Part shown: positions 631-4,992 of the stretch, in pieces
Position numbering within the stretch: position 1 is the stretch's first letter
Layout: every line of letters starts with the position of its first letter
NCBI GenBank assembly: GCA_019308645.1
Contig: JAFDHR010000210.1
Span: forward strand, 1 to 5,326
Length of the DNA stretch: 5,326 bases
DNA from: Deltaproteobacteria bacterium
Lineage (GTDB): Bacteria; Desulfobacterota; DSM-4660; Desulfatiglandales; B25-G16
Direction of reading: 5' to 3'
The notes under the pieces: model-generated
Seen by the model: only the letters and a program-made list of their open reading frames with translations
Databases searched by the model: none
Told to the model about the DNA's origin: nothing
Translations under genes and position numbers: made by a program

Positions 631-943
631 TTTGATTTAAAAATCCTTTACACGCCACTCGTCATTGATTTTTCCGCTCCGTCGTCCTTCAGCTAAGATT
701 CTGGAAAGGCGCTTATCTCGCCTTATCAAACGAGCCAGCTTCCATGCCTTTTCCTTTTCAGTATCAGACATGATCAAAAAGAGGTTTCTAACATCTTCTT
801 CATCTTGTGCACCACCTGCCATAAGTTTCATGCCCGCCAGATAAGGCATTGGATATACATTATGAAGTCCGGCATGTGGTGAAGGCATGGACCTAAACCC
901 TTCGAGTTCCCATTCATAATTTGCTATCAATATATGAACTTAA

Positions 944-968
944 CCCCGACATGTCGGGGAACTTTTTT
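944..968 (+). repeat. Perfect palindrome plus T-run (terminator-like on + strand)
   Basis: CCCCGACATGTCGGGG is a self-complementary 16-mer at 944-959, followed by AAC and six Ts (963-968). On the plus strand this looks like an intrinsic terminator. No plus-strand gene reads into it, and on the coding (minus) strand there is no T-run after it. I therefore read it as part of the inserted element and not as a terminator for any gene here. Confidence 0.55.
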
Positions 969-1028
969 GACAGGATTAACACGATTAACAAGATTTTTTA
1001 ATATCCGGAACATCCTGTCTATCCTGTC
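969..1028. repeat. Inverted GACAGGAT / ATCCTGTC repeat inside the inserted element
   Basis: GACAGGAT (969-976) is followed by the degenerate copies AACACGAT and AACAAGAT, then after a TCCGGA centre by two inverted copies ATCCTGTC (1012-1019, 1021-1028). Together they can fold into an imperfect stem-loop. The same words recur at 4727-4752 and 4946-4970, so this is a dispersed repeat type that is nested in, or forms part of, the TA-flanked element. Confidence 0.6.
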
Positions 1029-1339
1029 TAAAAAATGGGATTTCCTATACTATCAAGTTTCTTAAACCGTTTTTCTGAATCTGTTATTATTATCAGGTCA
1101 TGTCTCAGGGGATCAAACAGATCTTTAGATGCTTCAAAAACCTTAACTTCAAACTGTTCTCCCAGTGCTTTTCTCAAAAAGAAAAAGAATGATTTACGAA
1201 GATTGGTAATCTTATTCCTTCCATATGCAGAAAAAACAGAATATCAAGATCCAATGTTGTTCTCGGTATGCCACGCAGAATAACAGCCTCCCCTCCGATA
1301 ATAGCTGCAAGCCTGTTAGTGTTTTCTTTTCTTGCAAAG

Positions 1340-1510
1340 TTATCTATGCATTCTGTAACTATTTCTAATAAGTTTTTCATAGGCATCTTCTGGAGAAATC
1401 TTATACATTTGGGCCATCCTCTCTAAAGTCTCATCCAGTCGCCTTTCTGCCTCAGCAACCCTCATGGAGGAAACCATTTTCCTTACTCTCTCTGGATTAA
1501 ACTGGGGCAT
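1340..1510 (-). CDS. Small 56-residue charged helical protein of unknown function, overlapping both neighbours
   Basis: This short frame starts at ATG 1510 and ends at TAA 1342-1340. I do not recognise its family. It begins MPQFNPERVRKMVSSMR and ends SPEDAYEKLIRNSYRMHR. The composition is rich in Arg, Glu and Met and looks entirely helical, with no membrane segment; a short coiled coil is plausible around residues 17-36. Evidence that it is real: GAGAG lies 7 bases before the ATG, its start overlaps the end of the upstream MNT gene by 14 bases, and its end overlaps the start of the downstream nucleotidyltransferase by 41 bases. This is the arrangement of translationally coupled genes. The overlap also fills what would otherwise be an empty stretch of a compact operon. 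It could be a partner or regulator of one of the two nucleotidyltransferases, but that is inference. Confidence 0.65.
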   Translation of the reverse strand: MPQFNPERVRKMVSSMRVAEAERRLDETLERMAQMYKISPEDAYEKLIRNSYRMHR

Positions 1511-2719: not shown

Positions 2720-2740
2720 ATAATCGGTTCATAATCGGTT
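2720..2740 (-). promoter_or_regulatory. Direct repeat AACCGATTAT x2, possible antitoxin operator
   Basis: On the minus strand AACCGATTAT occurs at 2740-2731 and again at 2729-2720, 11 bases apart, about one helical turn. They lie 39-59 bases before the antitoxin start. Spacing and position fit an autoregulatory operator, though the assignment is inferred. The second copy runs into TATAAC, a weak -10-like sequence, so a proximal promoter is possible. Confidence 0.35.
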
Positions 2741-2749
2741 AAATTAGGT

Positions 2750-2812
2750 CGCAGATCTTCGCAGATAAATGCAGATAAGAATTTTTTATTTCGTAATCCA
2801 AAAAATCTGTGT
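2750..2812. repeat. CGCAGAT / ATCTGTG dispersed inverted repeat
   Basis: CGCAGAT at 2750-2756 and 2760-2766 and GCAGATAA at 2771-2778 are followed by the inverted AATCTGTGT at 2804-2812, so the unit can fold into a loose stem-loop. This kind of repeat (CGCAGATTAACGCAGAT ... ATCTGTG) is common between genes in some bacterial groups. It has no coding sequence and lies between the predicted distal promoter and the antitoxin gene. Confidence 0.55.
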
Positions 2813-2832
2813 CCAAAATGGGATTTCTATAC
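2811..2832 (+). repeat. Right end of a second copy of the TA-flanked element (truncated)
   Basis: GTCCAAAATGGGATTTCTATAC at 2811-2832 matches the right end of the element at 1026-1050 with one base lost before TATAC, and is followed by TA (2833-2834). No matching left end (TGAACTTA) is found to its left, so this copy is a remnant, perhaps replaced or overrun by the CGCAGAT repeat. Confidence 0.55.
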
Positions 2833-2881
2833 TATGAACTTAGCCGCCTATCATGTCTAAGAAATGGGATTTCTTATACTA
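2833..2881 (+). mobile_element. Short (45-base) copy of the TA-flanked element
   Basis: Bases 2835-2879 begin TGAACTTAGCCGCC and end AAATGGGATTTCTTATAC, with TA on both sides (2833-2834 and 2880-2881). The ends match those of the 116-base element at 935-1050: the first 8 bases are identical, and the last 25 differ at two positions. The interior palindromes are missing, so it looks like an internally deleted derivative. It abuts the remnant ending at 2832 through a shared TA, as expected if one copy inserted at the edge of another. Confidence 0.6.
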
Positions 2882-2885
2882 TTAA

Positions 2886-4692: not shown

Positions 4693-4803
4693 AATTAGTT
4701 AAATGGTAACAGTTCAGCTATCTTTTGACAGGATAAACAGGAATGACAGGATAATTGTCCTCATTCTGTTGATCCCCTATTATAGGTATCGCTTCAAAGT
4801 TAC

Positions 4804-4914: not shown

Positions 4915-4992
4915 AAGCGATCATTAGAGCATAGAGGAGATTGAAATCTTGTCTATCCTGTAATCTTGTCAAGATATTTTTTCAGGTGAACT

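Follow-up and report, generated by a model that had tools for sequence, protein, structure and literature searches.

The stretch of DNA analysed here (the window; 5,326 nucleotides, contig JAFDHR010000210.1 of a deltaproteobacterial assembly) contains a minus-strand gene interrupted by a non-coding insert, and removal of 118 bp joins its parts in one frame (...EKRFKKLD-ILIANYEWELEG...). Three copies of one kind of element are present in the window (936-1053, 2740-2835, and 2836-2882), and the features discussed below are as follows:

637-935, minus strand: 3' part of the interrupted gene
936-1053, plus strand: element, very probably a non-autonomous IS91-type insertion, with no open reading frame of its own; delimited by in-frame removal and by the left ends and empty sites of relatives
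936-942, plus strand: left-end heptamer GAACTTA (N-A-A-N'-TTA), proposed rolling-circle stop (ter); the same heptamer type stands at the left limits of other copies
944-959, plus strand: GC-rich hairpin CCCCGACATGTCGGGG beside the left end, from the sequence and the DNA fold; the same hairpin occurs in another copy (L161)
967-976, plus strand: interior fold-back, left arm TTGACAGGAT
1021-1030, plus strand: interior fold-back, right arm ATCCTGTCTA
1030-1053, plus strand: right end AAAAAATGGGATTTCCTATACTAT, proposed ori end; conserved over 165 copies, present on transposase-bearing IS91-type elements, and matched by ATTTCCTATAC in Escherichia coli IS91
1054-1060, plus strand: host target CAAGTTT, with the tetranucleotide CAAG at 1054-1057; directly 3' of the right end and assigned by the target rule described below
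1054-1386, minus strand: 5' part of the interrupted gene, with a frame change of its own at about 1200-1240
2740-2835, plus strand: second copy, different in its interior (TAAATTAGG...CGCAGAT type) and with a right end that lacks one C of the consensus; abuts the third copy
2836-2882, plus strand: third copy, 47 bp, a deletion derivative (GAACTTAGCCGCC...GGGATTTCTTATACTAT) followed by TAAATTA

The copy within the gene is laid out as GAACTTA, hairpin, ...GGGATTTCCTATACTAT, and the DNA fold of 925-1060 gives a z of -3.35. At the junction of the other two copies, a single heptamer serves as the left end of one and as the target of the other. A Phd/YefM-type antitoxin gene (2400-2681) and a PIN gene (1990-2400) have these abutting copies (2740-2882) immediately upstream, and their promoter could be affected. 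Pieces resembling the GACAGGATTAACA interior are found at 4723-4753 and 4944-4961, in inverted order and without a right end. No transposase is encoded in the window, and a search with Rfam 15 gave no match there at the gathering score (one sub-threshold match, 13.8 bits versus 60).

The protein joined across the insert matches 160 proteins at E<=0.001, the best of them 86% identical. Among 15 homologues chosen from the best 120 of the 160 matches and aligned at the junction, all 15 lack the insertion and run continuously through KKLD-[I/L]-L-[I/A]-[A/S]-N-Y. An earlier note on this DNA had described a non-coding insertion with sharp borders that splits a gene, and had proposed that homologues should read through a KLDILIAN-type junction; both survive the comparison, the junction being free of gaps in every aligned homologue. 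Its further statement that clean removal restores the frame is true of part of the gene. The halves do join, and yet the gene is damaged a second time, independently: at about 1200-1240 its frame departs from that of all 15 aligned homologues, so that removing the insert rejoins the 3' part only. The label "nucleotidyltransferase" for the split gene is that of the earlier reader, and Pfam names no domain in its pieces; the neighbouring ORF at 1497-1931 matches nucleotidyltransferase families. Close homologues of the split gene were not found in 20 genomes carrying the family, where four weak matches were obtained.

The same product results from removal of 933-1050, 934-1051, 935-1052, or 936-1053 (not from 932-1049 or 937-1054), because TAT stands at both ends. 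The register is fixed by empty sites and by the left ends of related copies: judged from these sequences, the element is the 118 bp of 936-1053, placed between T and CAAG with no duplicated base. The insertion proposed earlier at 935-1050 is real and sharply bordered, with its borders shifted by one base on the left and three on the right. The proposed 2-base TA target duplication does not hold; read against the related copies, it is a 3-base overlap (TAT), and the right-hand TAT belongs to the end of the element, where A occupies the second place in 165 of 165 copies and T the third in 162, in a search that itself required A at the second place and T or C at the third.

Ten joined flanks of related insertions were searched for empty sites in 41 relatives. 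A DNA-level empty site was found for three of them, all agreeing on the border and refuting the duplication: L228 aligns with L238 over 240 bp (82%), L025 with L240 over 239 bp (74%), and L233 with L237, both from the same genome, over 161 bp (97.5%), each with no gap. L025 also aligns with L248, with two gap positions. For the other seven junctions, no empty site was found in these 41 relatives, and the loci already collected yielded tandem cases only; two alignment rows of L165 represent a tandem-element junction and provide no test of the border. Comparison of L233 with the more divergent repeats L243, L250, and L068 gives 8-35 gap positions and does not support the border, and one alternative left start for L233, 10 bases away, produces a 10-base gap. 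In another genome (G007), one contig has two neighbouring paralogous genes (L020 and L026), both interrupted at T|CAAGTT by elements that differ in their interiors; removal of 116 and 118 bp gives the same frame. A third paralogous stretch is present on that contig.

A miniature element of the Tc1/mariner/IS630 type, duplicating TA, is suggested by the TA on both sides of the window copy and can practically be dismissed, given the lack of inverted ends, the absence of a duplication in the three empty sites, and the fact that no more than 13 of 109 candidate copies have TA ahead of their left end. The earlier note had likewise set aside a standard mariner/IS630 miniature element and had seen no terminal inverted repeats, with which inspection by eye agrees.

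The element belongs to a multicopy family. The right-end pattern ATGGGATTTCYTATACTA, searched in public genome contigs with no demand on the flank, gave 68 stretches with 70 copies. Most of the stretches are titled Desulfobacteraceae, Desulfobacterales, or Deltaproteobacteria, some are named "bacterium" only, and two come from one Planctomycetota draft; two flavobacterial stretches (L011 and L022) do not look like family members. A shortened pattern occurs 1-13 times in each of 20 of these genomes (reversed control, 0). With NAANTTA added, 197 genomes related to G007 were searched and 19 of them contain the pattern, one with as many as 49 copies, the control giving 0 among the matches listed. 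Altogether, 165 distinct right ends were collected, mostly from Desulfobacteraceae-type drafts, with the core GG[AG]A[AT]TTC[CT]TATAC followed by xAT or xAC; some of them were found with AA and TTA fixed and N and N' left free. About 20 bp of the right end are constant. Each of the four bases immediately upstream of position -15 is A in 154-163 of the 165 copies, and no position beyond them is well conserved.

The interiors differ and fall into many types. Where copies with different flanks have a common interior, the common part starts at or near an N-A-A-N'-TTA heptamer (among the matches listed). The left tetranucleotides of eight copies with one interior (type C) are CAAG (three copies), CCAG, GAAC, TAAG, TAAA, and CGAG, and the left and right tetranucleotides are identical in 10 of 45 copies. 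Next to the right end, a subterminal stem that may have any sequence is enriched (35 of 146 copies versus 30 of 438 with shuffled partners and 3 of 271 host stretches) and was rejected as a rule of the family.

Outside these genomes, phages and E. coli genome collections gave no match, and plasmids gave partial interior matches in four records. A Thiodictyon plasmid (L001), from another phylum, carries the GACAGGATTAACA...TAATCCTGTC interior alone, without the right end of the family. A search of viral contigs returned one match, whose layout was judged to be chance, and none for another string; two viral contigs with the same flank (L235 and L236) contain one plausible right end, AAAAAAGGAAATTCCTATACTAT, before TAAATTA. 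Within 3-3.5 kb of the right ends, no recurrent gene that might act as the mover was found, except for a GxxExxY gene in two copies. This gene (GxxExxY family, TIGR04256, as tested for L006) is located inside the element in L006 and L012 and looks like cargo; L060 has a short version without the gene at the same site as L006. TTCCTATAC looks like the yeast FRT site, a likeness judged to be chance. PMC6382973 contains the string in primers only and deals with an unrelated element that duplicates 9 bp.

The search for an autonomous element with the same ends, suggested in the earlier note, led to the same right end on elements with an IS91-family (Y2/HUH) transposase in five copies from four genomes (G116, G085, G289, and G209), one of which is intact. 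The element of G289 has an intact ORF flanked by GAACATATCGCACCTTCGGTGCGG and GGAAATTCCTATACAAT|TAAATTA (1,543 bp), and the left end of this element also occurs on copies without a transposase gene (among the matches listed). In G116, an IS91-family gene truncated where the contig stops follows the right end at about 108 bp; G209 has two transposase copies with damaged ends in the same place; and G085 has a broken copy with TTT instead of xAT at its end and, 1,677 bp further on, a GC hairpin and TAAGTTC. The distance between the right end and the start of the gene is about 108 bp in G116, G289, and G209 (the spacing in G209 was determined by hand). The transposase scores 228.9 bits with NF033538 (cut-off 125) and also matches PF04986 and PF14319; four of these proteins align with one another, and the PDB contains no sequence relative.

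The right end of E. coli IS91 is likewise placed directly before the target tetranucleotide: it reads ATTTCCTATACGT, including ATTTCCTATAC, and is followed by GAAC, CAAG, GCAC, or GTAC. In a Dongshaea element, ATTTCCTATAC was not found with one mismatch. Because the same right end occurs on transposase-bearing elements and matches that of E. coli IS91, the element at 936-1053 is, on sequence grounds, very probably a non-autonomous IS91-family member, one that an IS91-type (HUH, two-tyrosine) transposase would mobilise in trans. Other properties of the family are found as well: terminal inverted repeats and a target duplication are lacking (three ungapped empty sites), the right end abuts a tetranucleotide of the GAAC/CAAG type, the left end has GAAC (GAACTTA, 936-942) next to a GC-rich stem-loop (944-959), and the elements with the same end, unlike that of the window, encode an HUH/Y2 transposase with the IS91 zinc-binding domain. 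In PMC3189936, the right end of IS91-family elements is described as essential, and the left end as beginning with GAAC and carrying a GC-rich stem-loop. The relatives differ from IS91 and IS801, with which they have the GAAC and CAAG targets in common, by also targeting TAAA and AAAT. They differ further in gene orientation: the IS91 gene points towards the right (ori) end in five annotated E. coli stretches (L316, L323, L324, L326, and L328), whereas in all five copies from Desulfobacteria the transposase gene points away from it. This reversal looks new, as far as the compared sequences go.

Elements of the IS200/IS605 and REP types are also short, carry hairpins, cause no target duplication, and are moved by HUH enzymes. 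A miniature element of this kind, moved by a Y1 (one-tyrosine HUH) transposase, would account for a lower strand whose host side ends like TTGAT and for an element ending in a hairpin and a similar motif. A search for the Y1 and Y2 families covered 20 and later 13 family genomes: Y1 genes are present in 17 of 20 and 13 of 13, Y2 genes in 9 of 20 and 8 of 13. The genome with the most copies of any (G187, 49 copies) has Y1 matches and no Y2 match; a Y2 match is also lacking in G135, which has Y1 matches, and in G001. A right end lies near 2 of 60 Y1 loci, and in one of them (L104) the direction from gene to end is that of the Y2 cases. In L104, however, about 380 bp containing other fold-back repeats separate the end from an IS200-like Y1 gene, and in L119 the end is mismatched; there is no common spacing, as opposed to the 108 bp or so of the Y2 copies. 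As no Y1 gene occurs between these ends in a constant layout, and as the end matches that of E. coli IS91, a Y1 mover was judged highly improbable. An IS91-type mover is preferred, although 25 of 28 Y2 loci have no right end within the stretch examined. Of 395 genomes from the phylum, only three have a matching transposase at E<=1e-30; the protein database holds many 429-residue relatives (72-97% identity), from which it appears that draft genomes may lose the transposase gene.

We infer movement of the element itself by the following route. The lower strand would be nicked at host ...TAACTTG|AT... at the right (ori) end, so that the minus-strand reading of 1030-1053 would form the 5' end of the transferred strand. 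The CTTG|AT sequence resembles the nick sites of phiX174 and pC194. Rolling-circle replication would then displace one strand to the left as far as a hairpin with TAANTTN after it (the left end), and this strand would be joined 3' of another TAANTTN exposed as a single strand. Since any TAANTTN site may act as a stop, interiors could be lost, picked up, or swapped (one-ended transposition). The site would be read partly as a shape, with bases 1 and 4 of the tetranucleotide required to be able to pair. In Helitrons, gene polarity relative to the transferred strand is as in the Desulfobacteria elements; their ends (TC...CTRR) and their insertion in AT are unlike those of the present elements, whose IS91-type transposase, unlike Helitrons, has no reported helicase domain. 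A conserved starting end and a hairpin terminator near the other end are common to both: for Helraiser, PMC4778049 describes a conserved end at which transposition begins, a terminator hairpin close to the opposite end, and the capture of neighbouring sequence by read-through. For IS801 of Pseudomonas syringae, PMC3189936 describes fragments that start at GAAC-type tetranucleotides and truncated fragments that are mobile by one-ended transposition. By analogy, the two processes would explain the varied interiors.

The landing sites follow the form N-A-A-N'-TTA, with N and N' complementary. In the set unselected for the flank, 64 of 70 sites obey (expected fraction 0.366; p 9.9e-22, too sharp a value as the copies are related), the exceptions being L004, L011, L022, L044, L058, and L068. 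Over the 165 right ends, the tetranucleotides are CAAG (61; also the target in the window), TAAA (37), AAAT (21), GAAC (14), and rarer ones; 151 are paired (C-G 71, T-A 43, A-T 22, and G-C 15). The left ends are paired in 41 of 45, versus 385 of 1453 background NAANTTA sites; two hairpin-type left ends, including that of the window, dropped out of this count through a one-base offset, and both read GAAC by eye. In E. coli IS91, all nine distinct flanks obey (GAAC, CAAG, GCAC, and GTAC), with two of them nearly one site and GAAC and CAAG already known.

These counts might instead reflect a few favoured words (CAAG, GAAC, TAAA, and AAAT) read base by base and multiplied by kinship, with no rule of shape. 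The share of CAAG, the relatedness of copies within one genome, and the exceptions (6 of 70 right flanks and 4 of 45 left ends) are in keeping with this, as is IS801, which uses the non-pairing CGAC according to PMC3189936. However, all four pairs occur with both bases changed, no other pair among the eight flank positions tested has such an excess (threshold, 0.12 over expectation), and the insertions are mostly in different places, so that favoured words are an unlikely explanation. The pairing of the first and fourth target bases looks new from the sequences compared, as if the enzyme read an internal base pair in the manner of viral HUH nucleases. For viral Rep nucleases, PMC9973303 and PMC7826260 describe a single-stranded site that has to contain a Watson-Crick pair within itself, whichever the two bases, and PMC9973303 places this pair between -4 and +1; in the present elements, the pair would be -4/-1 if the nick, placed from sequence alone, is at the element border.

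A further reading, of moderate probability, is that IS91-type transposases choose their landing and stop tetranucleotides by shape (any first-fourth pair), so that ends and targets would drift by compensatory double changes, and that the Desulfobacteria branch carries its gene on the transferred strand as Helitrons do, which would make its polarity intermediate between IS91 and Helitrons. No account of such elements in Desulfobacteria, or of a pairing rule for IS91 targets, was found among the open-licence papers listed, in which older IS91 work is scarcely covered. If correct, the rule would provide natural, large-sample evidence of an HUH transposase reading base pairing at its cut site, previously measured, in the literature covered, on viral replication nucleases, and the CAAG and GAAC of IS91 would be two cases of one rule. 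It would also mean that the likely mover has been named for a large set of short repeats by which genes are interrupted and draft assemblies broken in uncultured Desulfobacteria.
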